From Anaerolineae bacterium (GTDB taxonomy: Bacteria; Chloroflexota; Anaerolineae; Aggregatilineales; Phototrophicaceae): a stretch of 64,000 nucleotides of DNA. The notes under the pieces were generated by a model. It was not told the DNA's origin. It searched no databases and worked only from the letters and a program-made list of their open reading frames with translations. The stretch covers positions 496,001 to 560,000 of the forward strand of contig JALHQT010000003.1 in NCBI GenBank assembly GCA_022841825.1, in the 5' to 3' direction. The translations under genes and the position numbers were made by a program. Of the stretch, positions 9,376-23,921 are shown one piece after another. How positions within the stretch are numbered: position 1 is the stretch's first letter; each line of letters starts with the position of its first letter.

Positions 9376-11823
9376 GTGCCGGATGTGTTCTTCAGCTACG
9401 ATGTGCTGGGCAACCGCCTGAGCATGACGGAGAAGAACGGGGCGGCGACGGTGCGCAAGGCGACCTATGGCTACGACCGGATGGGACGGCTGACGAGCGC
9501 CGGGTTCGATTGGGATGGCAATGGCACGGTCGAGGAGACGGTGGGGTATGCCTACGACGGGGTAGGACAGCGGACGACGCTGACGCTGCCGGATGGCAAG
9601 ACGGTGAGCTACAGCTACGACGCACGCGGGCGACTGACCAGCCTGACGGACTGGGCGAGCCAGAGTGCCAGCTACAGCTACGACGGCGCGAGCCGGCTGG
9701 TGAGCCGGACGGCAAACGGCATCACGATGACGCAGGTGCATGACGCGGCGGGGCGGCTGCTGTCACGGGAGCACAAGGCTGGCGCGACGCTGTTGAGCAG
9801 CTTCATCTACACGCTGAACGCGCGCGGGGACCGGACGCAGAAGGGCGAGAACATCCGCCAGAACGGGGGCGCGTACGACAATGGTGCCTACTACATGTTC
9901 TATGACGGTCAGCGCCGAGTGCGCCAGGTGATGCAGTACGGAAGCGGCGGATCAGGACCCCTGTACGAATACGATCATGCTTTCGACGTGGCGGGCAACC
10001 GCACGCAGGAGGTCGTGAGGATCGACGCGGCGGAGACGACGACCGACTACGAGTACGACGACGCGAATCGGATGACGCGCAGGCGTGTGAACGCGGGTGC
10101 GTGGACGAACCTGAGCTACGACAACGCCGGGCGCATGACCAGCGACGGAACGAACACCTATGCGTGGGATCGTGCCAATCGCCTGCTCTCGATGGGCGGC
10201 GCGAGCTACGCCTACGACGGCGCGGGACGGCGCATTGCGCAGACCGTGAGCGGCGTGACGACGAACTACCTGCTCGACGGGTCGATGGACTTGTGGGAGA
10301 CGCTGACCGCCACGACGGGCGCAAATGTCACGCGCTACGTGCATGATCCGCTGGGCGTGCTGGCGCAGCATGACGGCACGAGCTGGGACTGGATGCTGGC
10401 GGATGGCTTGGGCAGCGTGCGTAACGTTGTGGATGGCAGCGCGAACGTGTTGTGGAGCAGCCACTACGCGCCCTACGGCTCGCCCTACGGCGGGACGGGC
10501 ACGTCACAAACCGCCTACGGCTTCACAGGCGAGCCGACCGACGGCAACGGACTGGTCTACCTGCGCAACCGCTATTACGCGCCCGGCATCGGCATCTTCG
10601 CCAGCATCGATCCGCTGGAGACGGCGAACCGCTATGCGTATGTCGGCGGCAACGTCGTGAACGCGACGGACCCGAGTGGGTTGCTGATGGGCTTCGGAGG
10701 CACAAACACGGGTAAGTCTACGGGCAAAGGCACGGGTGCAGTTAAGCCCCTGGAAGTGAAAAAACCGCCGGTGACGCCGTGGGCATGGAACACTAATCCG
10801 AACCCGACGCCAGTTGCGCCCTGGGGACAAAATGCCAATCCAAATCCAACGCCCTACACGCCGCCGACAAAGACGACGCATGGCGTGCAGAGTGGGTCAC
10901 CCACAGACGGAAACACGCTGCTGCGTCAACCGACGACGGTTAATCAGGCGACAACGTTTGAAAACATGACGCCTGGGCAGCAACTCTTCACTTCGCTTCT
11001 TCAAGGGGTCATCTTGGATGTCGTGTACGATGTTGACCTAACTAATCCCAATGGAGGTATTTTTCCTTGGCTCTCATGGTACCAAGATGGGAACGGTCCT
11101 GCTCGAGTCAATGAAGCCTATCGCGCCGTGACTGACATTATGCGTGCGATTGCTGCTGAGGCGACTGGCGGCAACTATTCCCAGGCAGTTGATGTATTCC
11201 GACGCTCCTTAGGGGGTACGGACCTTCAACTTGTTCCAGGCAATGCCAGTGCCGCAACTGAGGATAGATTGCGTCCTGATGCAGCAGCAAGTACTAGCAC
11301 CGTAGGTCGCGAGCCACCGGTAATCTACCTGTATCAAAACCCGGAAGGAGCTGGAGCAGGGTTTGTCCATAGTCGGCAAAACATCGTCCATGAGTTTGGA
11401 CATGCATTTGTACGTAGGACTTCGGGCTTACCGAACAACCCGGCAGCCCTATGGGATCAGATCAACACCGTCGTAAGCCCCTTTGCCAGTACTGAACAAG
11501 GGTGGTTGAACGCAATAGATTTGCGCCAAAATCGGTATGCACTTGATAGCTTCGTTGGTCCAACCGCAGTGCAGCAGTATCGGGAGGAACAGATTGCGGA
11601 TATGTTCTTGTACTGGACATATGGCAATGGTCGTCAACCATCGGGCAGCGTTCCATACCAGTTTGATGTGAACAACCCAGATGACCAAACACGTCGTCGT
11701 GCCGAGGCTCTGGAAAACTTTATCTATGGCGGAACATGGACGGATGTAAATCCTGCTGGGACTGAGACTCTGCTTCAGAGTCCTGGTGCTGCGGCTTGGT
11801 TGATGGCGGCTGCACAAAGATAG
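9376..11823 (+). CDS. 5'-truncated RHS-repeat protein with C-terminal HEFGH metallopeptidase domain
   Basis: The 815-residue frame begins with GTG directly after an in-frame TGA and has no ribosome-binding site or signal peptide, so it is probably the 3' part of a larger RHS gene. Residues 1-395 are YD repeats (YDxxGRL/TSL wording). The RHS core ends with LRNRYYAPGIGIFASIDPLE (from 396) and DPSG (432-435). A Pro/Asn-rich linker follows to about 500. The variable tip carries HEFGH at 672-676 and EEQIAD at 737-742, the layout of a gluzincin-type zinc peptidase. RHS tips are typically toxins released from the cocoon-like core. Base composition falls towards AT from about 10980, consistent with exchange of the tip. 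Confidence 0.8.
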   Translation: MPDVFFSYDVLGNRLSMTEKNGAATVRKATYGYDRMGRLTSAGFDWDGNGTVEETVGYAYDGVGQRTTLTLPDGKTVSYSYDARGRLTSLTDWASQSASYSYDGASRLVSRTANGITMTQVHDAAGRLLSREHKAGATLLSSFIYTLNARGDRTQKGENIRQNGGAYDNGAYYMFYDGQRRVRQVMQYGSGGSGPLYEYDHAFDVAGNRTQEVVRIDAAETTTDYEYDDANRMTRRRVNAGAWTNLSYDNAGRMTSDGTNTYAWDRANRLLSMGGASYAYDGAGRRIAQTVSGVTTNYLLDGSMDLWETLTATTGANVTRYVHDPLGVLAQHDGTSWDWMLADGLGSVRNVVDGSANVLWSSHYAPYGSPYGGTGTSQTAYGFTGEPTDGNGLVYLRNRYYAPGIGIFASIDPLETANRYAYVGGNVVNATDPSGLLMGFGGTNTGKSTGKGTGAVKPLEVKKPPVTPWAWNTNPNPTPVAPWGQNANPNPTPYTPPTKTTHGVQSGSPTDGNTLLRQPTTVNQATTFENMTPGQQLFTSLLQGVILDVVYDVDLTNPNGGIFPWLSWYQDGNGPARVNEAYRAVTDIMRAIAAEATGGNYSQAVDVFRRSLGGTDLQLVPGNASAATEDRLRPDAAASTSTVGREPPVIYLYQNPEGAGAGFVHSRQNIVHEFGHAFVRRTSGLPNNPAALWDQINTVVSPFASTEQGWLNAIDLRQNRYALDSFVGPTAVQQYREEQIADMFLYWTYGNGRQPSGSVPYQFDVNNPDDQTRRRAEALENFIYGGTWTDVNPAGTETLLQSPGAAAWLMAAAQR

Positions 11824-11870
11824 CTCAGCATTCGGCTAACCGAGAAGTCGTGGACTAAGCAGCCCGCTGG

Positions 11871-11908
11871 ACTCTCACCACATGCGCTATAATGCGTGTG
11901 GTGAGAGT
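11871..11908. promoter_or_regulatory. 12-base inverted repeat enclosing TATAAT
   Basis: Perfect arms ACTCTCACCACA (11871-11882) and TGTGGTGAGAGT (11897-11908) flank a 14-base centre that contains TATAAT at 11888-11893. It lies between the RHS gene and the following gene. It may be an operator over a -10 box for the downstream gene, or a hairpin ending the RHS transcript. There is no run of T residues after the right arm, which weakens the terminator reading. Confidence 0.5.
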
Positions 11909-11939
11909 ATGGGTAGCGATGAATTTGAAGGCTTGTAAT

Positions 11940-12884
11940 ATGAAGAACGAGGCTCTTGTCGGCTTGATGGTCTGTATCATTATTGCCTCACTTGGAATCT
12001 CGCGTTCAATTGCAGCTTCTCGCGCTGAAAATGCGTCTAACACGATGTATTTGTCTCTAGGAGCAGACCCAACTCCATACTTTACATTACCCCCATCTTA
12101 TACACCTGCCTACTTGCAGCCCAATGATGATCAACTTGAGGATTACAATCGTCAGTTTGATGCGCCAAGCTGTACCATGCCCTGCTTGTGGGGCATGACG
12201 CCAGGAGTATCGCGCCTAGAAGATGTCTATGCGTTGTTTCAAAGCGCAGGTTTTTTGGGTAACCTGGATGAGGGTGGCGTGTTGATGTTTGGTCATGGTG
12301 GAGAACGAGAAATCAACTCTGGAGGGATCGGATTCCAGTTTGGTGGTGTCAGCCAGTCAACAAGCGTGACTTTTAGACTAGTCGACGATGTCTTGGCTTC
12401 TGCTTCTCTTAGAGCAGAAAGTCCTTCCCTCTGGCAAGATGTCAATACGTCTCCGCTGCGGCTTTCCACTGTTCTCTCTCAGTTGGAGTCGATCCCAGAA
12501 ATGTACATGGTAGGCGTTCGCCCGCACGGTCTTTGGCTGAATTTCTTAGGGATGATGTTATATTTTAGGGAAGAAGGTGTATTACTGGTTTATCAGTTTG
12601 ACTTTAGTGGCGATTGGGAGACACAACCTTCATCAGGAGGACTTCCAGAATTACGTAGGACATGTCCGACCCTAACCAATACGTGGCGTCTCACATGGCA
12701 TTTCTGGGATGCAAGCAGATATGATTGGAATGATGTGATTACTGAAATAAGTTCCTTAGAATACTATCCGACCGTAGATGAAGTTCTCGGCATCAGTGCT
12801 GCAACATTTGTGCAGTATTTCCGCGCTCATCCTGATGGGTGTATTGAGTCGGCTGTGAGCGACACGTACTACATGGGTGAATGA
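11940..12884 (+). CDS. Membrane-anchored or secreted protein of unknown function, candidate RHS immunity gene
   Basis: I place the start at ATG 11940 (MKNEALVG), giving 314 residues. In-frame ATGs at 11892 and 11919 exist, but the first falls inside the TATAAT box. An N-terminal hydrophobic helix (LVGLMVCIIIASLGI) acts as signal or anchor. The only visible motif is CTMPCLWGMTPGVS near residue 75, a Cys-x-x-Pro-Cys-x-x-Gly-x-x-Pro-Gly wording I have seen in uncharacterised Chloroflexota proteins. It follows the RHS metallopeptidase gene by about 115 bases and shares its lower GC content, the position where an immunity gene is expected. Function is unproven. Confidence 0.65.
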   Translation: MKNEALVGLMVCIIIASLGISRSIAASRAENASNTMYLSLGADPTPYFTLPPSYTPAYLQPNDDQLEDYNRQFDAPSCTMPCLWGMTPGVSRLEDVYALFQSAGFLGNLDEGGVLMFGHGGEREINSGGIGFQFGGVSQSTSVTFRLVDDVLASASLRAESPSLWQDVNTSPLRLSTVLSQLESIPEMYMVGVRPHGLWLNFLGMMLYFREEGVLLVYQFDFSGDWETQPSSGGLPELRRTCPTLTNTWRLTWHFWDASRYDWNDVITEISSLEYYPTVDEVLGISAATFVQYFRAHPDGCIESAVSDTYYMGE

Positions 12885-12885
12885 T

Positions 12886-12917
12886 CGTAGGGCGCAAAAA
12901 CCCGTAGGGTGCAAAAA
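12886..12917. repeat. Tandem direct repeat CGTAGGGyGCAAAAA
   Basis: Two copies, at 12886-12900 and 12903-12917, differ at one base (C/T) and are spaced by two bases. They lie just after the stop of the preceding gene and before the transposase remnant. They may be a leftover of an insertion end. Confidence 0.6.
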
Positions 12918-12935
12918 TCCCATCCGCGCGTGATT

Positions 12936-13211
12936 TCAAGCGGTATCCTTGTAATAATCCCCGATGATTCCGCTCAAAACGTCGCGGCGGCGCACCTTAC
13001 CCGCCGGACTTGCGGGCGGACGCGAGATGGGTGTCAACTGCGCTAGCCCTTGATGCGGTCGCGCGGTGTTGTGGTAGGTGACGTATTCTCGCATGACGCT
13101 GAGCAAATGCGCTTCGTTGACGATGAGGAGTTTGTTGAGGCATTCTTCACGGACGGAGCGAACCCACCGCTCGGCGTAAGCGTTGGCATTCGGGGCGCGA
13201 GAGGGTGACAA
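12936..13211 (-). pseudogene. Transposase C-terminal remnant (integrase core, DDE type)
   Basis: The 91-residue frame begins inside the catalytic core with the wording APNANAYAERWVRSVREECL, followed by YHNTARPHQGL. This is the part around the catalytic Glu and the conserved C-terminal segment of rve-type (IS3/IS481-like) transposases. The N-terminal helix-turn-helix and the first two catalytic Asp residues are missing. Sequence upstream (13212-13340) is unlike the family in every frame, so the gene is a fragment. It ends GIIGDYYKDTA, a tail that recurs at 24168-24200. Confidence 0.8.
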
Positions 13212-13342
13212 TCGCTGTCAATCGCCACAAAGCGAAGAAGACCCCGCATCATCGATCCTCTCGCAAAGCCCCAAGCGTCGCGCTGCCTGGGGCGCAAATC
13301 CACCGAAACGAAACCCAACGCTGCAAGATCAGCAGCGACCAG

Positions 13343-13500
13343 AACATCCTCACGCAGGTGGAGTACGACAAGGCGGGGCGGCGCACCGCGATGCGCGACC
13401 CGCGCGGCAAGCGGACGACGTATGCTTACGACGCGCTCGACCGCCGGACAGGGCTGACCGACCCGCGCGGCAGCCTTTGGACGACCGCCTACTCGTCGCC
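13343..13500 (+). pseudogene. RHS/YD-repeat fragment
   Basis: About 50 codons read as two YD repeats (VEYDKAGRRTAMRDPRGKRT, then YAYDALDRRTGLTDPRG) in the same orientation as the truncated RHS gene at 9376. There is no start signal, and the similarity ends abruptly at both sides. It is best read as debris of an RHS gene, perhaps the same one, broken by the insertion whose transposase remnant lies next to it. Confidence 0.7.
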
Positions 13501-13543
13501 GGCGCATCGGCGGGCGCGGGCGGCTGTGCTTGCGCTGGCGGGG

Positions 13544-13825
13544 CTAACGGAAATTGTTGCGCTTGGCTGCGGCGCGTTCACGGCGGAAAGTTTCGCGATC
13601 CATTGCTCGTTTATGAGACCAGCGTGGAGGAGTCTCCACCTCCTGCTTTGGAGCCAAGCCAGCCGGAACGTCCTTGGGGATAACGTCGATGGGCTGCTTG
13701 TTCTCCAGATTAGTCATGTAGGAGGTGAGCATATTCCCAAACGCCTCCGGATAGTCCGAACCGAGCGATTTGAGAATCGCATCAATTTCTTCGGGACTTT
13801 CGAGCTTCTTCATTTTTGGCTCCAT
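13544..13825 (-). CDS. Small hydrophilic protein of unknown function
   Basis: A 93-residue product with AAGGAG nine bases before the ATG. The first half is acidic and helical (SPEEIDAILKSLGSDYPEAF); the C-terminus is strongly basic (RETFRRERAAAKRNNFR). No transmembrane segment or known motif is visible. It follows the 207-residue membrane protein gene by 46 bases on the same strand, so it is probably the third gene of the heliorhodopsin transcript. The stop lies close to the accessory patch, so the C-terminus could have been altered by that insertion. Confidence 0.6.
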   Translation of the reverse strand: MEPKMKKLESPEEIDAILKSLGSDYPEAFGNMLTSYMTNLENKQPIDVIPKDVPAGLAPKQEVETPPRWSHKRAMDRETFRRERAAAKRNNFR

Positions 13826-13871
13826 GACTTATGCTCCTTGGGAGATGTAGTGAACAATTTAACCCTCCACG

Positions 13872-14495
13872 TTAGCTTTGGTCATGTGACCTATCTGCCC
13901 GGTTATCGCCATAGGCACGGATTGATTCGCCCTGCCCACCGACGGGTGCGGTGACCAGTGGCTGAGGAACGGGCACTGCTTTGCCACGCACCGCATAAAA
14001 CCATCGGTGTTCGGTGAGGCTCGACACGTAGTAGAGAGCCACCAGGATGACAACCCCCGTTGCGATGAGTGTGGTGCGGTAGTTGATGTCGCTCAGAGGC
14101 TGTGTAGTCGCAACCAGGTTTGCAGCGGTGGTAGCAGCGAAGGTGACCACGCCTGCAGCACCCGAAGAACGAATCACCCTGAATTCACTCTCGCCGGGAG
14201 GGAGCGCAAATTCAAACAGATTCGTGAGGCTGCTGCCGGTTCCCTGCCGCACGGAAGGACCTGAAACGTCCGCAATTGTGCTGGCAACGACGGTAAAGTT
14301 ACGGGTGCTGTTCAACTGTACCGGGATCGCTTGATCCGATGGATTGGTCAGCGCAACCATTCCCTCGCCAACCGTGAAGCTGAGGTTGGCACCAGAGTAA
14401 ATGCTTGTGCGCACGGAGTCCACTGCCCACAAGACAGCTCCAACGATGACGATAACCGCCAGGATTCCTTTGAGCATTGTCCAATTCATCTTCAT
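13872..14495 (-). CDS. Two-helix membrane protein with exposed domain, heliorhodopsin neighbour
   Basis: A 207-residue product with GGAGG upstream of ATG 14495. A first helix (about 8-26, LKGILAVIVIVGAVLWAV) is followed by roughly 110 residues of strand-rich sequence with no cysteine, a second helix (about 140-162, TTLIATGVVILVALYYVSSL), and a Pro-rich cytoplasmic tail. This gives an extracytoplasmic sandwich with both ends inside. I do not recognise the family. It lies 92 bases after the heliorhodopsin stop, same strand, with no obvious terminator between, so the two are likely co-transcribed. Confidence 0.75.
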   Translation of the reverse strand: MKMNWTMLKGILAVIVIVGAVLWAVDSVRTSIYSGANLSFTVGEGMVALTNPSDQAIPVQLNSTRNFTVVASTIADVSGPSVRQGTGSSLTNLFEFALPPGESEFRVIRSSGAAGVVTFAATTAANLVATTQPLSDINYRTTLIATGVVILVALYYVSSLTEHRWFYAVRGKAVPVPQPLVTAPVGGQGESIRAYGDNRADRSHDQS

Positions 14496-14587
14496 TTCCT
14501 ATTCCTCCGTACTTTGCAGATCCGACAATTGCAAGAAGATGGGGCTGCACGGCGAAAGTCATCGTGCAGCCAGGGTTTGGCGTCAAT

Positions 14588-15391
14588 CTAGCTCGGCTGA
14601 AGCTGCCCCGCCCAGATTTGCCAGGCGAGCACGGACTTTGCCACCAGACTTAACACAATGTAGGCGTACTCGCCGAACAGGTAGTTCTTCCAGAACCCAA
14701 TACCGCGATATTGCAGCCACATATTGAGCGCAAAGATGTTGAAGAAGACGAAGATCGAGATGAGGATTGCGTAGACAAAGCCGGGTATCTCTGTATCGAC
14801 GGATTGCGCTGCTCCGGCGATGTAAAGCACGATCACAATCCACGGGATGATTCCCGCGATACACCCATAAATGAACGCGGTCCAGTCTGTTTTGGATGTC
14901 GTCTGATTGTGCAGTTCCATCATCAAACCAAACAGATTCATCATCGCATTCAAGCCGAAGATCAGTATCAGGGTCGATAGATCGTAGATTCCAACCAGCA
15001 TTCCAATGAGCACAAGCATGAGCGATGAACTGAGCGCGTATTCGTACCAACGCGCAGGATTAAACTTGCGCTTGAGATTCTTGACGTACCACTGATAGAG
15101 AACCGTCCCCAGCAGGAGGTGTGCTGCTGCGGACATCAGCAGGAAGAGCGCGACTGCGGGACCAAACGGGATGCTGCTCGTCTGTTGGAGATTTTGCTCC
15201 AGGCTGAAGCTCCCGTTTCCAACCACAGCACGAAGGTAAAGCGTGCTGAGCGAAATGCTGAAGTCCGAACTCAACGCAATCATTGCGATGCCCTGGATGA
15301 GGTGAAATATCCCCATCACGATATTGAAGCGTCGTAAATTGACGAAGATACGGGCGGGTGGCATAGGGTCGGAGGCGACTGCGGCTGCCAT
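14588..15391 (-). CDS. Heliorhodopsin
   Basis: A 267-residue seven-helix retinal protein. AAGGA lies seven bases before the ATG. From memory of the type member 48C12, the matches are close. Helix 3 reads RWYEYALSSSLMLVLIG, with counterion E117 (the equivalent of E107). Helix 7 reads YIVLSLVAKSVLAWQIWAG, with the retinal-binding Lys at 252 (the equivalent of K241). The two inner-side histidines are kept (H30 in MGIFHLIQG, H91 in SAAAHLLLG). Helix 6 has SIFVFFNIFALNMWLQY. Heliorhodopsins insert with the N-terminus in the cytoplasm, opposite to type-1 rhodopsins, have slow photocycles and usually do not pump, so sensing or enzyme regulation is suspected. A divergent histidine kinase starts 205 bases away. 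Confidence 0.95.
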   Translation of the reverse strand: MAAAVASDPMPPARIFVNLRRFNIVMGIFHLIQGIAMIALSSDFSISLSTLYLRAVVGNGSFSLEQNLQQTSSIPFGPAVALFLLMSAAAHLLLGTVLYQWYVKNLKRKFNPARWYEYALSSSLMLVLIGMLVGIYDLSTLILIFGLNAMMNLFGLMMELHNQTTSKTDWTAFIYGCIAGIIPWIVIVLYIAGAAQSVDTEIPGFVYAILISIFVFFNIFALNMWLQYRGIGFWKNYLFGEYAYIVLSLVAKSVLAWQIWAGQLQPS

Positions 15392-15596
15392 TTAGAGTCC
15401 TTATGTTGCAATCGAGAACTGATCCACTCTCATGGTAGATCGTTTCTCAAAGTCGCTCACCCTACATAGCAATGATCTTTTTGTCATCCAACAGGAGCAT
15501 CTTTTTGCTTATCGCGCTGCACTCCGCCATCATCAAGGAAGGCAAAGGTCAAAATTCTCACCCTTAGCCCAGTAACGGCGGAAGTGGAGCGTGACC
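15392..15596. promoter_or_regulatory. Divergent control region between heliorhodopsin and GAF kinase genes
   Basis: This 205-base gap must hold the promoters of both divergent units. It contains a direct repeat ATCTTTTTG at 15475-15483 and 15499-15507, a period of 24 bases. No strong -35/-10 pair was recognised on either strand. Confidence 0.4.
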
Positions 15597-17123
15597 ATGA
15601 GTGACCTCCAGGAAAAAGTCCAGGTAGTTCAGAGTTGGCTTGATGAGCTTCGACAGGACCGTCCTGCAAATCCACCCAGAGTAAACGTGAACGAAACAGT
15701 GCTGACTCAGGTATTGGAAGTGATTCAGCAGAGCGCTGCTGGTTCTGGCGGACCCGATGTGTCCCAGAACTATGCTGACCTGGAGCGGCAAGTTCAGAAG
15801 CAGACAGTGGCGCTCACCCGCGCAACCAACGCTTTGAAGCGCCAGATTACCCAGCGCGAGACAGCAGCACAAAAGCTGCGAAAAGCGTATAACGACCTGG
15901 AGGTGCATCTTCAGGATCACATCGCGTATCAGTCAAAGCTGAACCAGCGATTACAGGAACAGATCGAGGAAGAAAAGCGCACCCAGGTGGGCAAGCAGGA
16001 GGAGAAGGCGCTAAGCGAAGCTTTGCGAGACACACTTGCAACCATGAGCAGCACCGTCGATCTGGACAAAATCCTCGATCACATCCTCGACACCGTCAAA
16101 AGAGTCACGCCTTACGATGGAGCCAACATCCTGTTTGTCGAGTCAGATCTTGTTCATGTGGTGCGTCAGCGCGGCTACCAGGCGAGGGGGCTGGACAAAG
16201 ACTGGCTAAACCAGCGCATTCCAATCACCAAGTTGGCAGTTCTGCAGCAGTTGATGGATGTCGGCAAATCGATGGCGATCCCAGACACCACGACTTCACC
16301 CCTGTGGATAGGTTTCCCGAACTTAGCCTGGGTCAATTCCAATGTCATCGCTCCCATTCGCTCCAACGGCAAAATCCTGGGCTTCCTCTCACTCGACAGC
16401 GCGACACCCGGCTACTTTACCGAGGTTCATGCTGAACGATTACAAACCTTTGCTGATCAGGCAGCGATTGCCATTCAAAATGCTCGCCTGCTGGAACGCG
16501 CTAAACGAGCGGCGATCCTGGCGGAGCGCAATCGATTGGCAAACGAACTGCACGATACCATTTCCCAAACCCTTTGGTCGATGAGTCTTCTGACGGAACG
16601 TATCTCTGCTATATGGGAAATTGATCAGGAAGAGGGGCGGCGCAGCCTTCTGACATTACACCTGTTGGCGCAAAACGCGCTGGGTGAAATGCGCTCTTTG
16701 CTTCTGGAATTGAGTCCGTCAGCCCTGACCAAGGGAAAATTGGGGGATCTCATCCGCCAAGCGGCTGAGGTGATCAGCAATCGCACCGCGTTGAGCATTT
16801 CAGTCACGGTCGAAAACCAAGAGCCGATTCCGCCGGATGTCCACTTTGCTCTCTACCGAGTCGTTCAGGAAGCACTCAATAATGTTGTTCTGCACGCCCA
16901 GGCAAACAAAGTTGAAGTCTACTTCAACAGTGATGGCAGGCGGGTTGAACTGTCTGTTCATGACAATGGTGTGGGTTTCGATCCATCTGAAATCGGCATT
17001 GGTCACCTGGGCTTAAGCATCATGAACGATCGCATCAAGAGTATTGGCGGAACGCTCGAAACCAGCAGTCACAAAGGAGAAGGGTCCCGTATTCGGGTCG
17101 TTTGGATCGCGCCCACTGCTTGA
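15597..17123 (+). CDS. Soluble GAF-domain histidine kinase, NarL/DesK-type (HisKA_3)
   Basis: A 508-residue cytoplasmic kinase; GTGGAG seven bases before ATG 15597 decides the start over the GTG at 15591. Residues 1-50 are unassigned, about 58-145 form a coiled coil, and a GAF domain spans about 147-300. The H-box ANELHDTISQTL has its His at 319, and the N-box is near 425 (EALNNVVLHAQANKVEV). No transmembrane helix or PAS domain is present, so the signal reaches it through the GAF ligand or a partner protein. The regulator gene follows 50 bases downstream. It is divergent from the heliorhodopsin gene, which makes a light-linked input an attractive but unproven idea. Confidence 0.93.
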   Translation: MSDLQEKVQVVQSWLDELRQDRPANPPRVNVNETVLTQVLEVIQQSAAGSGGPDVSQNYADLERQVQKQTVALTRATNALKRQITQRETAAQKLRKAYNDLEVHLQDHIAYQSKLNQRLQEQIEEEKRTQVGKQEEKALSEALRDTLATMSSTVDLDKILDHILDTVKRVTPYDGANILFVESDLVHVVRQRGYQARGLDKDWLNQRIPITKLAVLQQLMDVGKSMAIPDTTTSPLWIGFPNLAWVNSNVIAPIRSNGKILGFLSLDSATPGYFTEVHAERLQTFADQAAIAIQNARLLERAKRAAILAERNRLANELHDTISQTLWSMSLLTERISAIWEIDQEEGRRSLLTLHLLAQNALGEMRSLLLELSPSALTKGKLGDLIRQAAEVISNRTALSISVTVENQEPIPPDVHFALYRVVQEALNNVVLHAQANKVEVYFNSDGRRVELSVHDNGVGFDPSEIGIGHLGLSIMNDRIKSIGGTLETSSHKGEGSRIRVVWIAPTA

Positions 17124-17173
17124 CGCATGATACAATGGAGATGGGCTGCTGATACAATCGGGGCGTGCTAAAA

Positions 17174-17839
17174 ATGGAATCTCCAGTGTCAACTCCGATT
17201 CGGATTGGTGTCGTTGACGATCACGCCATGCTGCGTAAGGGATTGGCTGTCTTCTTGATGAGCTATCCGGATCTCAAGCTGGTTGGCGAAGCATCCAATG
17301 GCAAGGAGGGCTTGACTCTCTGTGCCGAGCAACACCCCGACATCATCCTGATGGACCTGATGATGCCGATCATGGACGGCATCGCCGCGACCCGCCATAT
17401 CCGCCAGGACTTTCCAAATATTCAAGTGATTGCACTCACCAGCTTTGGTGAAGAACGGCTGATTAAGGATGTACTGGAAGCTGGCGCAATCAGCTACCTG
17501 TTCAAAAAAGCGTCCGCAGACGATCTTGCCAATGCTATCCGTGCCGCGCATAACGGTATTTCGACGTTTGCGCCGGAAGTCACCGATATTCTCATCCAGT
17601 CGATTGGCAGACCTCATTCGGTGTTTGAGGAATTGACCCCACGCGAACGTGAAGTGCTTCGTCTTCTGGTCAAGGGGATGTCTAACAACGAGATTTCGAG
17701 CGCCCTAACCATCAGTGGCGCGACCACAAAGAACCATGTCAGCAATATATTGTCCAAGTTAGGGGTGACGACACGGGTTGAAGCGATTGTTTTGGTGATG
17801 ACACAGAGCCTGAGTCTCGGCGATTTCTATATTTCCTAA
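17174..17839 (+). CDS. NarL-family response regulator
   Basis: A 221-residue regulator from ATG 17174; an in-frame GTG at 17165 would add three residues. The receiver has D15/D16, phosphoacceptor D61 (ILMDLMMP), T89 in ALTSFG and K111/K112. The LuxR-type helix-turn-helix (about 155-215) reads LTPREREVLRLLVKGMSNNE. The preceding GAF kinase is the obvious cognate. The following run of stress genes on the same strand (18155-22608) is a reasonable regulon candidate, by position only. Confidence 0.93.
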   Translation: MESPVSTPIRIGVVDDHAMLRKGLAVFLMSYPDLKLVGEASNGKEGLTLCAEQHPDIILMDLMMPIMDGIAATRHIRQDFPNIQVIALTSFGEERLIKDVLEAGAISYLFKKASADDLANAIRAAHNGISTFAPEVTDILIQSIGRPHSVFEELTPREREVLRLLVKGMSNNEISSALTISGATTKNHVSNILSKLGVTTRVEAIVLVMTQSLSLGDFYIS

Positions 17840-18154
17840 CGTATCAGCTTCAGTGATTGTGAAGACTGGCTTGATCCTCCGGATACCCTACTGATAAATC
17901 CTCCCTGCGTCGGATGCTCGCAAGAGCCAAGAAGACTAGACTGAGTATAAGCTCCCTTAGCATTCGAATATCATTCGTCTCGCGTCTTTGGGAGATTTGC
18001 CCCTTCGGCGACCCACAGCTCACTAACCACAATGCTCGCGCATCAGCCGCCCTGTTCTGATGCATGACACAACCAGAATTACCCGCTCAATCCTCGCCAC
18101 CTTGTGTGGATGCCGACCACTTTCGCCCTGATTTAACAGAAAGCAAATCGCTCT
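17840..18154. other. Intergenic region of 315 bases
   Basis: No gene is seen on either strand. CTAGACTGAGTATAAG at about 17936-17951 contains TAGACT, the same hexamer found in front of other genes here, but it lies more than 200 bases from the next ATG. Nothing else was recognised. Confidence 0.4.
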
Positions 18155-18991
18155 ATGAACACGACCATTGTCGCTATTTACGATGACATTGTTGTCGCAC
18201 GTCAGGTTGTTGAAGATCTTGTGCAAGCCGACTTTGCACGCGATTCAATCAGCCTTGTCACCAACGATGCGCAGAATCAATACAGTCACTATCTGGACAA
18301 AAGCTACACTCCGAAGACGGATGCGGTTACTTCTGGCGAAGGCGCGGGGTTTGGGGCAGTCGTCGGTGTACTGACAGGCATTCTTGTCGGCGCGGCGGCA
18401 TTGACCATCCCCGGCATTGGCTTGGCAATCGCAGCGGGTCCGATTGTTGGCGCGGTCACTGGCGTCCTGGCTGGAGCCGTGACGGGCGGCATTGTCGGCG
18501 CGCTGGTCAAAAGCGGCGTCCCCGAAGACGATGCCCCTTACTATGCCGAAGGGATACGCCGCGGCGGGACGCTGGTCAGCATCGAGACTCCCGATACCCT
18601 GCGTGCGCAAGATATTCTCAGTCGGCACGGTTCCATCAACATCCACGAACGCAGCAGTTTGTGGCGGCAAGCGGGATGGTCAGGGTTCGGTGACGAACAA
18701 GACGATACAAAAGATAAAGCGGCTTCCGACATGCTCGGTACGGGCATTCATGGTGGGGCGCACAGCCCAATAAAGGATCGCACCCATGAGGAAGATACAG
18801 CGACAGACCCGCCGATCAAGTCATTGACTGAAGATGTGCCTGAAGATGTGCCTGTTGATGACGAGGATACGGTCAAGACAGTTCCAGTGATTGTCTCAAG
18901 CCCCATGAGTGCAATCGTGCTGCCCGCTGGAACCCTTCTTCCGACGGTCGAAGTACCGGCTCGTCTTGATGACGCGGGCACCGCTCACTGA
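18155..18991 (+). CDS. General-stress-type glycine-zipper protein
   Basis: A 278-residue product. Residues 1-60 resemble the small alpha/beta domain of the Bacillus general stress protein 17M type (TTIVAIYDDIVVARQVVEDL). A long Gly/Ala/Val segment (about 68-118) has the spacing of a glycine-zipper membrane hairpin, and residues 125-160 return to an alpha/beta pattern (YYAEGIRRGGTLVSIETPD). The last 100 residues are acidic and probably disordered. Proteins of this type appear in desiccation and osmotic stress sets in cyanobacteria and Chloroflexota. It heads the run of small stress genes. The ribosome-binding site is weak. Confidence 0.75.
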   Translation: MNTTIVAIYDDIVVARQVVEDLVQADFARDSISLVTNDAQNQYSHYLDKSYTPKTDAVTSGEGAGFGAVVGVLTGILVGAAALTIPGIGLAIAAGPIVGAVTGVLAGAVTGGIVGALVKSGVPEDDAPYYAEGIRRGGTLVSIETPDTLRAQDILSRHGSINIHERSSLWRQAGWSGFGDEQDDTKDKAASDMLGTGIHGGAHSPIKDRTHEEDTATDPPIKSLTEDVPEDVPVDDEDTVKTVPVIVSSPMSAIVLPAGTLLPTVEVPARLDDAGTAH

Positions 18992-19126
18992 TTCGCGTGC
19001 ATCCATGGACGAGAAGATCACCCCAATGGATGACAAAAGAACCCACTCGAAGATGGATGCCTGGATGAGGTACCCATCGTAGACTGAGTACAGAGGTAGT
19101 CCTGAACATAGTTGGAGCGAAGAATC

Positions 19127-19402
19127 ATGGATCAAATGGGATGGCTCGCCTGGTTAGTCGTCGGAGCGGTTGCCGGTTGGTTGGCAAGCATGGTGATGAA
19201 AACGAACGGACAGCAGGGGCTGCTCATGGACATCGTTGTCGGCATCGTCGGTGCCTTTATCGGTGGTTTTCTGTTCAACCAGTTCGGAGCAGCAGGTGTA
19301 ACGGGCTTCAATATCTGGAGCGTTATGGTGGCTTTCGTCGGTGCGATAGTCTTGCTGGCGCTGCTGCGCCTGTTGAGCGGACGCCGAACATTTTCTCGAT
19401 AA
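19127..19402 (+). CDS. GlsB/YeaQ/YmgE-family stress membrane protein
   Basis: A 91-residue protein with three hydrophobic segments (about 4-24, 33-55, 62-85). The family wording is clear: VVGAVAGWLASMVMK, GLLMDIVVGIVGAFIGGFLF. GGAG nine bases before ATG 19127 fixes the start. The family is linked to envelope and acid stress; its biochemical role is unknown. A paralogue lies at 41425-41688. A TAGACT hexamer sits 41 bases upstream (19080-19085). Confidence 0.93.
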   Translation: MDQMGWLAWLVVGAVAGWLASMVMKTNGQQGLLMDIVVGIVGAFIGGFLFNQFGAAGVTGFNIWSVMVAFVGAIVLLALLRLLSGRRTFSR

Positions 19403-19497
19403 GTCCGTGTAGAGTAATTTCCGATAGGGGCACCGGTGATTTATTGCCCGTGCCTCTCGACAAAACATGGTGATCAACGAAATGAGGGTACAGAGAA

Positions 19498-19782
19498 ATG
19501 AACAGTGATCGTATCTACTACAGCCACGACGCCGAAATGCATGCAATGCGCAACAGAGCAGTGCTGACGTTAGCATTTGTGACGTTTGGCCTGGGGATCG
19601 GAGCCGTATTAGCCGTCCTCTTTTCCCCTATCTCTGGCAAAAAAGCCCGCCACGAGTTCGCTGAGAGTGTCGGAGATGGACTGAATACGGGCCGCGAGTC
19701 AATTGAACCGCTTATCAAGCGGCTTGAAGAACAATTCAATGATCTGCGTAAAAGCGTTGATGACCGAATGAAACACGCCTAG
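19498..19782 (+). CDS. YtxH-like small membrane protein
   Basis: A 94-residue protein. The N-terminus reads RIYYSHDAEMHAMRNR, followed by one transmembrane helix (about 22-42, ending AVLFSPISGKKAR, the usual YtxH junction) and an amphipathic C-terminal helix that could be a coiled coil. YtxH proteins are general-stress proteins of unknown function. A paralogue with the same YYSxDAE opening is at 51709. Confidence 0.85.
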   Translation: MNSDRIYYSHDAEMHAMRNRAVLTLAFVTFGLGIGAVLAVLFSPISGKKARHEFAESVGDGLNTGRESIEPLIKRLEEQFNDLRKSVDDRMKHA

Positions 19783-19838
19783 CACATCGACGAAGTTTCT
19801 CGTCCTGGCTCATTTTGTCTAGAGTGGAATGGTGAAAC

Positions 19839-20507
19839 ATGATACGTTCGATTGTGATTGTCCCTGATACTGAGCCAGAGGCGGTCATTGAAGCCAACCC
19901 TGTATCCTCAGTCAATGGGGCAGCGGAAAATGTTTCAGCCGTTCCACTCACCCTACGTCGTAACCTCACCCAGGAAAACCTGCTGCTGGATCGCATCAGC
20001 AATCAGCTCAACGAACTGGAAGCGAAATTGCTGAGTGACAGTGACGATAAACACGCACAAAAGTCGGTCTATCGCATCAAACAGCATCTGATTGGGCTGC
20101 GACAGATGATCGCCCCGCAGCGGGAAGTGCTGTCGAATCTCATTGGCGAGCAGCGTGTCTCCAGCAGTAGTGATATTCGAGATTTGTTTCGTCACCTCTA
20201 CGAGCGTCTGCTGGGAATTTATGATGTGATTGACTCGCAGCGGGATCTAACCAATAACGTGCTGGAAATCATCGCTAATCAACAGTCACGCAAGATGGGT
20301 GAGGCTGTCAACCGCCTCACGATCATTTCGCTCGTGTTCTTGCCCTTCACCTTTTTCGTGGGTTTATTTGACTCGAATTTCTTCACTATCGGCGAAACTG
20401 TGACGCTGCCGATTAATGGTCTGGTGATTTCTATTCTAATTACGCTTCTTATGATCGTGTCTATTGTGGTTATGCGCCTGATTTTTCAGCGGCACGGCTG
20501 GGTTTGA
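19839..20507 (+). CDS. CorA-like protein, N-terminally short, degenerate selectivity motif
   Basis: A 222-residue product that matches only the C-terminal half of CorA magnesium channels: a long stalk helix (about 90-160), then NRLTIISLVFLPFTFFVGLF as pore helix 1 and a second helix (about 192-213). In true CorA the loop after helix 1 carries Gly-Met-Asn; here it reads DSN (178-180), with only the Asn kept. The cytoplasmic alpha/beta domain of about 150 residues is replaced by a short unrelated N-terminus. Transport activity is doubtful; a regulatory or divergent channel role is possible. The gene sits within the stress run. Confidence 0.8.
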   Translation: MIRSIVIVPDTEPEAVIEANPVSSVNGAAENVSAVPLTLRRNLTQENLLLDRISNQLNELEAKLLSDSDDKHAQKSVYRIKQHLIGLRQMIAPQREVLSNLIGEQRVSSSSDIRDLFRHLYERLLGIYDVIDSQRDLTNNVLEIIANQQSRKMGEAVNRLTIISLVFLPFTFFVGLFDSNFFTIGETVTLPINGLVISILITLLMIVSIVVMRLIFQRHGWV

Positions 20508-20608
20508 AGGTAGTTCTGACTATTTAGTCCTGGTTTAAGACACATTACTTGTTGCCCAGATGCAAAAATTCAGAGGTTCATAAGGACTAATAGACCAGGG
20601 AGTGAGCT

Positions 20609-21037
20609 GTGAAACAAGAAATGGGTTTGTGGATTGACCATAGGCAGGCTGTTATCGTGAACCTCGACCAAGAGGAAACAATAAAACGGATAACCTCCAA
20701 TATGGAAAAGCATGTTCGTTATTCCGGGGCATCAGAGGCGAGTGGTACAAACGAATCCCACAATGACACCACAGAGGACGGACGCGACAGACGGTTTTAT
20801 GACCAGCTTGACCGATACTACGATGAGGTCATCTCATCTCTTCGTGATGCAACCTCGATTCTGATACTGGGTCCTGGCGAGGCGAAGAGTGAGCTTCGCA
20901 AACGGCTGGACAGTCACGGACTCGGTGATCGTATCGTTGCTGTCAAAACCACTGACAAGATGACTGATGCACAGATTGCGGCAGAAGTGCGGCAGCACTT
21001 TCGAGACTCACAACGCAATTCGAATAGAACTTCCTGA
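20609..21037 (+). CDS. Small protein with a WIDHRQA opening, possibly eRF1-domain-like
   Basis: A 142-residue cytoplasmic protein starting at GTG 20609 behind AGGGAGTGAG. It opens MGLWIDHRQAVIV, has an acidic middle, and a C-terminal part reading ILILGPGEAKSELRKRL and then VAVKTTDKMTD. That second half recalls the end of eRF1-type domains (GPGEAK then a beta-strand), a fold found in bacterial stress-linked homologues. The assignment is tentative. Context is the stress gene run. Confidence 0.7.
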   Translation: MKQEMGLWIDHRQAVIVNLDQEETIKRITSNMEKHVRYSGASEASGTNESHNDTTEDGRDRRFYDQLDRYYDEVISSLRDATSILILGPGEAKSELRKRLDSHGLGDRIVAVKTTDKMTDAQIAAEVRQHFRDSQRNSNRTS

Positions 21038-21072
21038 TATCAGGAAGTAGCTAAAGAAACGTGAGGCCCCGT

Positions 21073-21345
21073 ATGAACACCAAAAGGCAAATCTCCCTTG
21101 AGGAAGCACGCTCGGTTGGAACAAAGCTTGGGATCGACTGGACGAAAATTGATCTGGAGCAGTTTCGGCGCGGGCTTGATGTCGAACTCGAACATGGCGC
21201 GTGTGACCCAGAGACCAACGTCACGAACGATGATCCCGTATTGACGGGGAAAATCGCCTGGGCACATCTGAAAGAGATCTGCGACTACTACACGCGGTTG
21301 GATCGACTCGAAGCCGAGTCAAAGGTTGAGGGCTTGAACAATTGA
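21073..21345 (+). CDS. DUF5661 family protein
   Basis: A 90-residue soluble protein. The wording LEQFRRGLDVELEHGACDPE, TNVTNDD and KIAWAHLKEICDYYTRLD matches the DUF5661 family as I remember it. I use ATG 21073 rather than the upstream GTG at 21061. Function unknown; the family often sits in small-protein stress clusters like this one. Confidence 0.8.
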   Translation: MNTKRQISLEEARSVGTKLGIDWTKIDLEQFRRGLDVELEHGACDPETNVTNDDPVLTGKIAWAHLKEICDYYTRLDRLEAESKVEGLNN

Positions 21346-21407
21346 CGCACTGTCATTCAAGCCCACTTCCAACTCTATATCCGCATCCATGAGGAGGCAG
21401 GAAAGAA

Positions 21408-21833
21408 ATGACAGAGAATGAGCTACGTAGTCAAGAGTTGAACCGGCACGAAGAAAGAGTCGACCGGAATATTGAACATCATCAAGCTGTGAATCTGGGC
21501 GAAAAGCAACGGGGCATCGCGGCGGCCAATCAGAATTCTTCTGTCGCACGAATCATCAATATCGTCTACTTCCTGTTTGGGGCAGTGGAACTGCTGCTCG
21601 TCGTTCGCGTAGTTCTGGTTCTAGCCGGCGTGAATGCAGCAAATGCTTTCGCAGGGTTCGTTTACGGATTGTCAGCACCGTTTGTGGCGTTGTTTGCGAG
21701 CCTGATGCAAAACCCCACACTGGGAGGCACCTCGGTGCTGGAAATCACTACACTCATCGCCATGCTGGTGTGGGCGATCGTGGCATGGCTGGTGGCGCGG
21801 CTGATTTGGCTGGTACTGAGTCGTCCACGGTAG
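21408..21833 (+). CDS. YggT-family membrane protein
   Basis: A 141-residue protein with GGAGG upstream of the ATG. A charged N-terminal stretch of about 50 residues is followed by two or three helices (about 47-75, 80-100, 115-137) with YggT wording (INIVYFLFGAVELLLVVRVV). YggT proteins are small integral membrane proteins linked to osmotic tolerance and division. It lies in the stress run, 60-odd bases after the DUF5661 gene. Confidence 0.85.
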   Translation: MTENELRSQELNRHEERVDRNIEHHQAVNLGEKQRGIAAANQNSSVARIINIVYFLFGAVELLLVVRVVLVLAGVNAANAFAGFVYGLSAPFVALFASLMQNPTLGGTSVLEITTLIAMLVWAIVAWLVARLIWLVLSRPR

Positions 21834-21918
21834 AAATTGATCGCGTGGCGACTATCGACTCCGCCAATGATGATGTCTGCATTGAAACGTTCGTTAATCA
21901 GTGAAAAGGGAAATGACG

Positions 21919-22134
21919 ATGGCAACAACTGGAAACTGGGACAAGGTGAGCGGCAAATGGAAGCAGATCACGGGTGAAGTCAAGAAACAGTGGGGCACCC
22001 TGACGGACGATGAACTCATGGAGATCAATGGCGACCGCGAAATACTGGCGGGCAAACTCCAGGAGAAATATGGCATCGCCAAAGAACAAGCCAACAGGCA
22101 AATTGACAAGTGGGCGGACAAACTGAAGCTTTAG
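21919..22134 (+). CDS. CsbD-family stress protein
   Basis: A 71-residue hydrophilic protein. AAAAGGG sits about eight bases before ATG 21919; GTG 21901 and ATG 21913 are alternatives. It has CsbD wording: WDKVSGKWKQITGEVKKQWG, LTDDEL, INGDREILAGKLQEKYG. CsbD proteins are sigma-B-type stress proteins of unknown action. A paralogue is encoded at 41756-41968. Confidence 0.93.
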   Translation: MATTGNWDKVSGKWKQITGEVKKQWGTLTDDELMEINGDREILAGKLQEKYGIAKEQANRQIDKWADKLKL

Positions 22135-22164
22135 CAGCTTCAACCAACGAAGCAGGACAAAACC

Positions 22165-22608
22165 ATGAATTGCCAGGAAATGATGTCTCAACACCCTGAG
22201 TGCTGTGTTGCGAGTGATAAAGTCTATACAGTTGCGCAGCGGATGCAAAGCGAGAATATCGGCGCGCTGCCCGTGGTGGACAACTATGTCACCAAGAAAC
22301 TGGTAGGAATCATCACTGATCGTGATTTAGCCATTAAGGTGGTCGGTGCCAGTCGCGATGCAACCAGCACCCGGATTGCGGACGTGATGACACCGGATCC
22401 CGTAAGCTGCCACCCTGAAGACGATCTTGATGCGACACTGCGCACTATGGCAAGTTACCAAATCAGACGAATCCCTGTCGTTGACGAGTTTGGGCAAGTC
22501 GTTGGAATCATTGCCCAGGCGGACATCGCGATACATCTGGACGACCACGAAAAGGTACGGCAGATGGTGAACGAGGTTTCGCAACCCAGCTTGATTCCAA
22601 GCCCTTAG
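22165..22608 (+). CDS. Tandem CBS-domain protein
   Basis: A 147-residue protein made of two CBS motifs. The first ends GIITDRDLAIKVV, the second GIIAQADIAIHL; between them is VMTPDPVSCHPEDDL. Such stand-alone CBS pairs bind adenosine nucleotides and sense energy state. It closes the stress run and is followed by a strong hairpin at 22640-22681. Confidence 0.93.
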   Translation: MNCQEMMSQHPECCVASDKVYTVAQRMQSENIGALPVVDNYVTKKLVGIITDRDLAIKVVGASRDATSTRIADVMTPDPVSCHPEDDLDATLRTMASYQIRRIPVVDEFGQVVGIIAQADIAIHLDDHEKVRQMVNEVSQPSLIPSP

Positions 22609-22639
22609 CGCCCATCTGAGGTTGTAAGCAGGATCTTCA

Positions 22640-22681
22640 CTTCGTACGCCGATCACTGACGATCGCGATCGGCGTACGAAG
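22640..22681. terminator. 15-base stem hairpin after the stress run
   Basis: Perfect arms CTTCGTACGCCGATC (22640-22654) and GATCGGCGTACGAAG (22667-22681) enclose 12 bases. There is no T tract, so it may be a transcript-end stabiliser or a dispersed palindrome rather than an intrinsic terminator. Confidence 0.55.
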
Positions 22682-22724
22682 CCGTAAGCCTGGAAATCAT
22701 GACGAATATACGCAGGAGAATGCA

Positions 22725-23006
22725 ATGTCTATGGATAACAAGCAGTTTGGCGCTTCGTTTGTTCGTACATCTACTTCCACACCACAACTGGGGCAGGTCA
22801 TCACGCATGTTGGCGAAACCCTCCCCGATGGCTGGCTACCCTGCGATCACCGAATGCTGCGACGAGCCATGTACCCGGAACTATTCGATGTCATCGGCAC
22901 CAAATATGGTGATGGTGATGGAAGCAACACGGCTTTTAATCTACCCCCTAGCTCGTCGCCGGACTCAAATGTCCGTTCGATTATGTTCGTGGGCAAACCA
23001 AGGTAG
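22725..23006 (+). CDS. Stand-alone phage tail-collar domain protein
   Basis: A 93-residue protein with AGGAGA upstream of the ATG. The wording GETLPDGWLPCDHRMLRRAM, YPELFDVIGTKYGDGDGSN and FNLPP is that of the tail-collar domain found at the tip of phage fibres and in the microcystin-dependent-protein group. No other phage gene is near. The body is only one domain long and lacks a signal peptide, so it may be a domesticated relic or part of a contractile apparatus encoded elsewhere. Confidence 0.85.
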   Translation: MSMDNKQFGASFVRTSTSTPQLGQVITHVGETLPDGWLPCDHRMLRRAMYPELFDVIGTKYGDGDGSNTAFNLPPSSSPDSNVRSIMFVGKPR

Positions 23007-23057
23007 ATAGTGCGCTGGACAGCTCCTGCCCTCCCTGTCTAGCGACGCTGCGAGACC

Positions 23058-23921
23058 CTATGGTACGACACCCGTCAGATTCGCCAGTTCTGCGCTGACG
23101 TCCCACAGCTTCTTGGCGACTGCCATATCGTTCGCCTGGGGGGCTGCCGGGACAATTTTTGAGTCGTAGAAGTATTTTCCGCTGATGCCGTCCACGTCAG
23201 GTGAGGAGGCAAGAAAGATCGGTGTTTCCGCGCCTCTTTCCGGAGACCGTGCGATCAGAGGGACGATGACCCGCATGATCTTCATGAAGAAGCCAGAGTT
23301 GTTGCTCCCGAATCCGGTATTGACAAAGCCCGGATGCAGAGCATTGACGGTGACGCCGGTTCCTGTCAGGCGCTTTGCCAATTCCGTCGTAAACAGAATA
23401 TTCGCCAGCTTCGAATGTCCATACGCGCCAATCCCGTAATTCCGCTCGCCCTGAAGGTTGTCGAACTCGATTTTGCCGCCCGTATGTCCATTGGATGACA
23501 CATTGATGATCCGCGCGGGGGCGCTGGCTTTCATCGTGTCGAGGAGCAAATGGGTGAGCAGGAAGTACGCCAGATGATTGAGAGCGAACGTCAATTCGAT
23601 ACCATCCACACTGAGCTGGCGCTCCAGGAATACGCCGCCCGCGTTGTTGAGCAGGACATGCAGGTGTGAGTATCTGCGCTTGAATTCATCTGCCAGGCGT
23701 CGAATGTCCTGCTGGGATGACAAATCCGCGAGCAGGGACTCGACGGTTTTGCTGCTGCTCGCGGCGCGAATTTCTTCAACCACCTGCGCGGTTTTCTGAG
23801 CATTTCGCCCTACGATGACGACCGTTGCGCCCATACAGGCGAGTCCCAGTGCGGTGCTTTTGCCAATCCCGTTCGTGCCGCCCGTAATCAGTCAAATCTT
23901 TCCCTGCATCGTCATCGCCAT
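23058..23921 (-). pseudogene. Short-chain dehydrogenase interrupted by in-frame TGA
   Basis: The natural start is ATG 23921 (MAMTMQGKI), with AAAGGA upstream. Codon 10 is TGA (23894-23892), and the same frame then continues LITGGTNGIGKSTAL, the NAD(P)-binding motif, to the end at 23058. Intact relatives would have 287 residues. NNAG and the catalytic YGHSK are present in the remainder, so only this stop breaks the gene. Restarting at ATG 23834 would lose the cofactor site. Either a recent nonsense mutation, a sequencing error, or stop-codon readthrough is required. Confidence 0.8.

Follow-up and report, generated by a model that had tools for sequence, protein, structure and literature searches.

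Described systems and the locus

VraS and LiaS are membrane kinases with a short two-helix input, and the VraSR/LiaSR systems to which they belong have a third membrane component, LiaF or VraT, which provides feedback in these envelope-stress systems. Type-1 sensory rhodopsins are bound to a transducer that is itself a membrane protein. The locus described here lies in a 64,000-nucleotide stretch of an Anaerolineae bacterium of the Phototrophicaceae (GCA_022841825.1, contig JALHQT010000003.1, positions 496,001 to 560,000), hereafter the window, in which a heliorhodopsin gene stands head to head with a histidine kinase gene that is followed by a NarL-type response regulator gene and a run of stress genes (Table 1). 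The explanation we consider somewhat more probable than all others together is that this is a VraSR/LiaSR-like stress regulon in which heliorhodopsin is an optional target of the regulator, made when the stress system fires.

The likeness to VraSR/LiaSR consists of a HisKA_3 kinase beside a NarL-type regulator, with VraR as the regulator's best match among solved structures (4.5e-49) and a kinase core that matches those of DesK and VraS, together with apparent autoregulation through an inverted-repeat operator. The locus differs in its soluble GAF kinase, which lacks the membrane two-helix input, and no LiaF/VraT-like family was found among the window proteins scanned, to which the search was confined. 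As in type-1 sensory rhodopsin systems, a rhodopsin adjoins a signalling gene, but here the kinase is soluble and rhodopsin-free in most genomes that carry it.

Heliorhodopsin function has been argued largely from neighbouring genes. Glutamine synthetase (PMC9529153), a photolyase (PMC9769723) and an ABC transporter (PMC11109279) are reported as heliorhodopsin partners in the available text of these papers, so the initial annotation's statement that heliorhodopsins lack a known output does not hold. The present case involves the same protein family and likewise relies on a neighbouring gene; unlike those cases, it has no such partner among the annotated adjacent genes, and a 207-residue membrane protein and the kinase adjoin instead. 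In the available text of Bulzu et al. (2021, PMC8612252), kinases and response regulators are linked with heliorhodopsins in several phyla, Chloroflexi among them; the loci described resemble this one, in that response regulators and HisKA kinases carrying GAF/PAS domains lie near heliorhodopsin, and a link to oxidative stress is proposed, on the basis of proximity, same-strand operons and transcripts. The general link between heliorhodopsins and kinases is thus already published, and the supplementary maps of that work may contain this type of locus. What is new here is the operator and the proposed direction of control: unlike the loci in that text, the pair is divergent, has a defined operator and can be compared with modules without heliorhodopsin, which points to heliorhodopsin as a target. 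Among the literature matches listed, no title or abstract opening placed a heliorhodopsin under a stress response regulator, subscription literature lying largely outside that search.

The stress module with and without heliorhodopsin

At a threshold of E ≤ 1e-110, eight genomes out of 154 from the order have a close orthologue of the kinase, counting the window's own genome; the orthologues in the other seven are 61-76% identical to the window's kinase, and the next kinases reach at most 45%. Heliorhodopsin is present in two of the eight, the window's genome and G454 (the genome of the named locus L034, at the same coordinates, and the source of stretch L153), and missing from six. The order heliorhodopsin-operator-kinase-regulator-YflT-GlsB-YtxH-CorA is common to both heliorhodopsin-bearing genomes, whose kinases show 24% divergence. 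Among the genomes without heliorhodopsin, G445, G024, G418 and G463 carry the kinase and regulator beside GlsB and some or all of YflT, YtxH and CorA, and G019 retains the kinase, the regulator and a homologue of the 207-residue protein; the contig of G432 ends at the kinase, and that of G418 shows only ∼560 bases upstream of it. Judged by gene order, the kinase, the regulator and the stress genes (YflT-like, GlsB, YtxH-like, CorA-like) are a conserved module. The GAF region aligns in all kinase orthologues (that of G432 is cut, but begins at the start of this region), and the kinase N-termini do not follow the presence of heliorhodopsin, being shorter, by eye, both in G454, which has it, and in G463, which does not. 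The initial annotation had described a kinase with no obvious sensor; GAF is itself a sensor-type domain.

Heliorhodopsin was found in 48 of 396 genomes sampled across the class, in 3 of 98 family genomes and in none of 14 other members of the genus. The nearest other heliorhodopsin in the family, that of G021, is 73% identical to the window's, and no such kinase occurs in the 16 kb examined. The best 80 of 117 heliorhodopsin loci were compared, of which 64 include 2 kb or more of sequence upstream of the match to heliorhodopsin and 40 extend 5 kb to either side. In the recurrence test proposed in the initial annotation, a head-to-head kinase was detected by tblastn in L034 alone (1/80); L075, L076 and L107 gave weaker kinase matches. 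An iterated kinase profile placed a kinase within 10 kb of heliorhodopsin in 11 of 71 loci and a regulator in 8 of 71, for which no enrichment is claimed, because many flanks are short, a single kinase seeded the profile and there is no background. These 71 loci are the window and 70 of the 80, ten having been dropped where the open reading frame caller missed heliorhodopsin. The largest cluster of shared neighbours, ABC transporters by eye, occupies 12 of the 71 loci within 5 kb, and the next cluster 6. These ABC-transporter-like neighbours, in L042, L043, L051 and nine more loci, agree with the reported link between heliorhodopsin and an ABC transporter. In the archaeal loci L092, L098 and L105 (Euryarchaeota/Thermoplasmata), a homologous gene lies divergent, ∼2.4 kb upstream of heliorhodopsin, and by eye has a GAF-type signalling look.

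In an unrooted tree of kinase plus regulator from the eight genomes, the window pairs with heliorhodopsin-less G445 (bootstrap 100) and G454 falls on the opposite side, the remaining nodes being weak (28-54). By the kinase alone, the window is equidistant to G445 and G454 (76%), and it is the regulator that separates them (85% to G445 vs 77% to G454). The heliorhodopsin tree pairs the window with L034 (0.997), with L035 joining next (1.0). We infer that heliorhodopsin was either lost in G445 or arrived or moved more than once, and since each course implies a kinase that does without it, heliorhodopsin would be dispensable to the kinase. Because the module is kept without heliorhodopsin, the pair occurs in only 1 of 80 loci and the kinase and regulator group with those of G445, heliorhodopsin is, on this comparative evidence, not the kinase's required sensor.

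An operator between heliorhodopsin and the kinase

The shared control region supposed in the initial annotation is well supported by sequence comparison: in each of the two pair-bearing genomes, a module-conserved operator stands between heliorhodopsin and the kinase. The kinase starts 205 nucleotides from heliorhodopsin, as originally given, if read from ATG 15597, or 199 nucleotides if read from GTG 15591. The element, operator A, is of the inverted-repeat type with the ideal form TCATCC-N4-GGATGA, and was recognized when the inverted repeat before GlsB matched the one between heliorhodopsin and the kinase; further sites were then gathered by pattern from other genomes. A profile made from five sites in other genomes scores the GlsB site at 18.1 and the heliorhodopsin-kinase site at 17.8, the next match in the 64 kb being 13.1. 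With leave-one-genome-out profiles, the top match lies upstream of the kinase or GlsB in L153, L147, L149 and L151. Weaker top matches upstream of the kinase were obtained in L146 (16.1) and L148 (15.2), which contributed no sites to the profile; in L150 the top match falls in the gap between the regulator and the gene that follows, and no match in L152 exceeds 10.8. Looser or differently spaced motif patterns, which gave many matches everywhere, were discarded, as was a pattern count of 2 found against 0.13 expected, which is circular because the pattern had been derived from those two sites.

The geometry of the element is constant. Operator A has the same orientation toward the kinase in all seven sites, and it lies upstream of the kinase whether heliorhodopsin is present or absent. 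The GlsB genes at the sites found (5/5) and both heliorhodopsins face it from the side opposite to the kinase. The distance to the likely ATG is 90 and 80 nucleotides for the heliorhodopsins of the two genomes, and for GlsB 91 (window), 91 (G024) and 85 (G445) nucleotides, with ∼249 for both GlsB copies of G463. On the heliorhodopsin side, an operator B-like stretch adjoins operator A, with p = 8.4e-4 among 52304 positions (the low-GC block plus L153; training on genomes without heliorhodopsin, best of three registers).

Promoters of the stress genes and a possible heliorhodopsin promoter

An ungapped alignment of 86 columns covers eight promoters from six genomes, six of GlsB and two of YflT; they share operator A (degenerate in two of them), followed by operator B and, at a constant offset, a TATACTGA-type -10 box. 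A profile built from other genomes only ranks the GlsB promoter first of 127838 window positions, and an untrained profile without operator A ranks the YflT-like promoter second in the window. The model R1 was made from these eight promoters and contains no heliorhodopsin sequence. Across 21 genomes, 11 match it at E ≤ 0.1, comprising 8 of 8 kinase-bearing genomes (six of which supplied R1 training sequences) and 3 of 13 others; the matches outside the kinase-bearing genomes are weaker (G368, 30.8 bits; G013, 23.5; G482, 18.7). The window's genome has two matches, both training members in the module (150 of 206 first-look candidates scored), and none was found in 6 of 7 other genus members or in G021. 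Untrained matches, with the genes behind them named by eye, lie before YflT in G445 (48.5 bits); in G454, before a YflT paralogue that does not belong to the module (49.5 bits) and, in L171, before the gene of a NarL-type regulator (35.4 bits); in G019, before a 334-residue membrane-type protein (43.2 bits; L160); and in G368, at 30.8 bits, before a small protein of membrane type (L161). The matches in L171, L160 and L161 are likewise outside the module.

When the profile is built from five GlsB promoters, all belonging to genomes without heliorhodopsin, the heliorhodopsin side of the operator comes second both in the window (127838 positions) and in L153 (26838 positions). Without operator A, the window's heliorhodopsin side has p = 3.8e-4 (rank 48), and that of L153 has p = 7.4e-5 at a one-base shift and 0.012 unshifted. 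The -10 part alone gives p = 0.0078 (window) and 0.0021 (L153, shifted) with the window and L153 promoters in training, and a weaker 0.014 and 0.014 when retrained on heliorhodopsin-less genomes, all being best of three registers before correction for them. The -10-like box is present on the heliorhodopsin side in both genomes, and it is absent from all four kinase-upstream regions that have neither heliorhodopsin nor GlsB (lowest p 0.036, retrained 0.052). Gene order offers a parallel: in G463, a GlsB gene stands opposite the kinase across the operator, and downstream of a further GlsB gene, which has the same promoter, a same-strand homologue of the 207-residue protein is encoded; in the window, heliorhodopsin stands opposite the kinase and is followed by the 207-residue gene. 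The evidence for a heliorhodopsin promoter is suggestive, and heliorhodopsin would appear to occupy a stress-gene position.

Several observations weigh against heliorhodopsin as a target. No site was found before GlsB in G454, and the GlsB site of G418 has a poor operator A. The -10 box on the heliorhodopsin side is weak and one base off in L153/G454, and the heliorhodopsin promoter score comes mostly from operators that kinase-upstream regions have in common. R1 also matches the kinase-upstream regions of G445 and G019 (positions 3-52 and 6-49), does not list the window's heliorhodopsin promoter at E ≤ 1, and matches that of L153 over positions 3-53 only, that is, over the operators. The p-values are optimistic, as a pattern search supplied the initial sites and the promoter had been spotted ahead of its testing, and the two heliorhodopsin cases may represent one inherited event. 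R1 has no match in 79 other heliorhodopsin loci either, a result that says little because R1 misses the window's own heliorhodopsin promoter.

Gene content and origin of the locus

The protein assignments of the initial annotation were reproduced (Table 1). In heliorhodopsin, the retinal lysine K252, the counterion E117 and the inner histidines H30 and H91 are all kept by residue count. Alignment with solved heliorhodopsin structures makes E117 the counterpart of the glutamate in 6is6; 7clj, a chain otherwise near-identical to 6is6, has Asp at the equivalent position. The host genome encodes a phytoene synthase and an RPE65-type carotenoid oxygenase, the only possible retinal-supply genes seen, from which a supply of retinal is plausible. 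A search for the retinal oxygenase PF15461 gave no match, as did the control searches, and is therefore uninformative.

The 207-residue protein encoded downstream matches no Pfam family at cut-off and has a hydropathy maximum of 2.5. In G019 and G463, which lack heliorhodopsin, homologues are found close to the kinase or to stress genes (tblastn, L149 and L151), and in G454 the gene downstream of heliorhodopsin is a decayed remnant with stops and frame changes (L153:1-620), although heliorhodopsin itself stays open. This membrane protein is the nearest candidate partner of heliorhodopsin, its decay in G454 notwithstanding.

The kinase is membrane-free, as first described, with no hydrophobic segment (best 19-residue Kyte-Doolittle mean 1.01). 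His321, within the sequence NELHD, is presumably the phospho-acceptor. A bilin chromophore in the GAF domain was considered and ruled out, since the kinase has no cysteines. The long same-strand run of stress genes is also as reported, with YflT-like, GlsB, YtxH-like, CorA-like, DUF5661, YGGT and CBS proteins, and it ends with a 93-residue protein carrying a phage tail collar domain (PF07484, 22725-23006). A second HisKA_3 kinase in the window (46821-47951; G000:C3:542821-543951) is 36% identical to the first over residues 127-504; the genome has 20 HisKA_3 domains in total.

Table 1. Features of the heliorhodopsin-kinase locus, in window positions
Feature	Position	Strand	Description
Low-GC block	11001..24700		500-base windows mostly 47-57%; surroundings ∼60-66%
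207-aa protein gene	13872..14495	-	92 nt downstream of heliorhodopsin, same strand; hydrophobic segments near both ends (by eye)
Heliorhodopsin gene	14588..15391	-	267 aa; PF18761, 329.5 bits; E117, K252, H30, H91
-10-like box	15430..15437	-	TACCATGA; offset from operator A equals that of TATACTGA in GlsB promoters
Operator B-like stretch	15458..15481	-	heliorhodopsin side
Operator A	15481..15506	+	TTGTCATCC-N4-GGAGCATCTTTTT; between heliorhodopsin and kinase
Histidine kinase	15591..17123	+	GAF-HisKA_3-HATPase_c; soluble; N-terminal coiled-coil-like region (by eye)
Response regulator	17165..17839	+	NarL/LuxR-type; receiver and GerE/LuxR domain
YflT-like gene promoter	17869..17949	+	operator A degenerate, B, -10; R1 48.4 bits (training member)
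YflT-like stress protein	18155..18991	+	PF11181
GlsB promoter	19010..19092	+	operators A and B, -10 TAGACT; R1 65.5 bits (training member)
GlsB / transglycosylase-associated membrane protein	19112..19402	+	PF04226 (Transgly_assoc); likely start ATG 19127
YtxH-like protein	19498..19782	+	PF12732, E 4.5e-8, under family cut-off
CorA-like membrane protein	19839..20507	+	PF01544, C-terminal part of family
Remainder of same-strand run	20609..22608	+	weak baeRF-like match, DUF5661, YGGT, CBS pair

The whole stress module lies inside the low-GC block, where GC rises to 64% at 13.0-13.5 kb and to 59% along the right margin. Its left part contains or adjoins RHS-type sequence (9376-11823) and a fragment of an rve_3 transposase (12936-13211), and a 33-nucleotide imperfect repeat occurs at 12940 and 24169. 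The heliorhodopsin-less module of G024 is likewise lower in GC; in G445, G019 and G463, GC is uniform along the stretch at ∼48-50%. Probably the block was acquired horizontally by the window's lineage, which is the simplest reading.

Competing explanations

In the explanation we favour, the soluble GAF kinase would phosphorylate the NarL/VraR-type regulator, which would bind operators A and B and so activate GlsB, YflT and its own kinase-regulator operon, the operators at GlsB and YflT lying upstream of the TATACTGA-type -10 box. Heliorhodopsin, across the kinase's operator at GlsB-like spacing, would be another, optional target, and the cell would make it when the stress system fires. That position and spacing, in both the window and G454, make heliorhodopsin a likely optional target, and control of heliorhodopsin by the regulator appears more likely than control of the kinase by heliorhodopsin; the operator would then drive heliorhodopsin, whose subsequent role we can only infer. 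The opposite arrangement, close to the light-to-stress circuit of the initial annotation, has heliorhodopsin as the kinase's light sensor, acting through the coiled coil or the GAF domain and hence on the stress genes. Head-to-head order kept in two genomes whose kinases have diverged by about a quarter, the plausible retinal supply of the host and the over-representation of two-component genes near heliorhodopsins generally (available text of PMC8612252) speak for it, yet it is unlikely, given that the kinase persists without heliorhodopsin in most of its genomes, including G445, the window's own partner in the kinase-regulator tree, that a dedicated transducer would not be expected to occur without its rhodopsin, that the GAF region aligns across all orthologues and gives the kinase a sensor-type domain of its own, that N-terminal length is unrelated to heliorhodopsin (by eye), and that the pair is confined to a single one of the compared loci, the close heliorhodopsin of G021 having no such kinase in the 16 kb examined. 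An obligate sensor-kinase pair is ruled out by the heliorhodopsin-less orthologues.

Heliorhodopsin could also be a chance neighbour that hitch-hikes on a mobile stress block with no functional or regulatory link to it. The low-GC block with its transposase and RHS-type sequence, the scarcity of heliorhodopsin in the family and its absence from the rest of the genus, and an operator A that belongs to the kinase where heliorhodopsin is missing would all fit; we nevertheless find this doubtful, as adjacency and spacing are kept in two diverged genomes, despite decay of the downstream gene in one, and the heliorhodopsin side shows both the spacing of GlsB and a -10-like box. Heliorhodopsin might instead be target and regulator at once, a light-sensitive third component feeding back on the kinase in the manner of LiaF or VraT. 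VraR as the regulator's closest solved relative, a soluble kinase with a membrane protein adjoining and an operator common to both genes are consistent with this, but heliorhodopsin belongs to a different family from LiaF/VraT and is optional in the module, and we regard such feedback as distinctly unlikely. Its fullest form, a loop in which the VraR-like regulator induces heliorhodopsin and light-activated heliorhodopsin then tunes the kinase as a replaceable third component, is more speculative again; if true, it would give a pre-existing stress system light dependence once the gene was plugged in beside the operator.

Implications

The occurrence of the same stress module with and without heliorhodopsin, together with a conserved operator, makes the direction of control testable, and the operator would define, for this lineage, a stress regulon searchable by sequence. 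If heliorhodopsin is a target of the regulator, inferences that take an adjacent kinase to mean that heliorhodopsin is its sensor would need to be checked for the reverse, a stress-induced heliorhodopsin.

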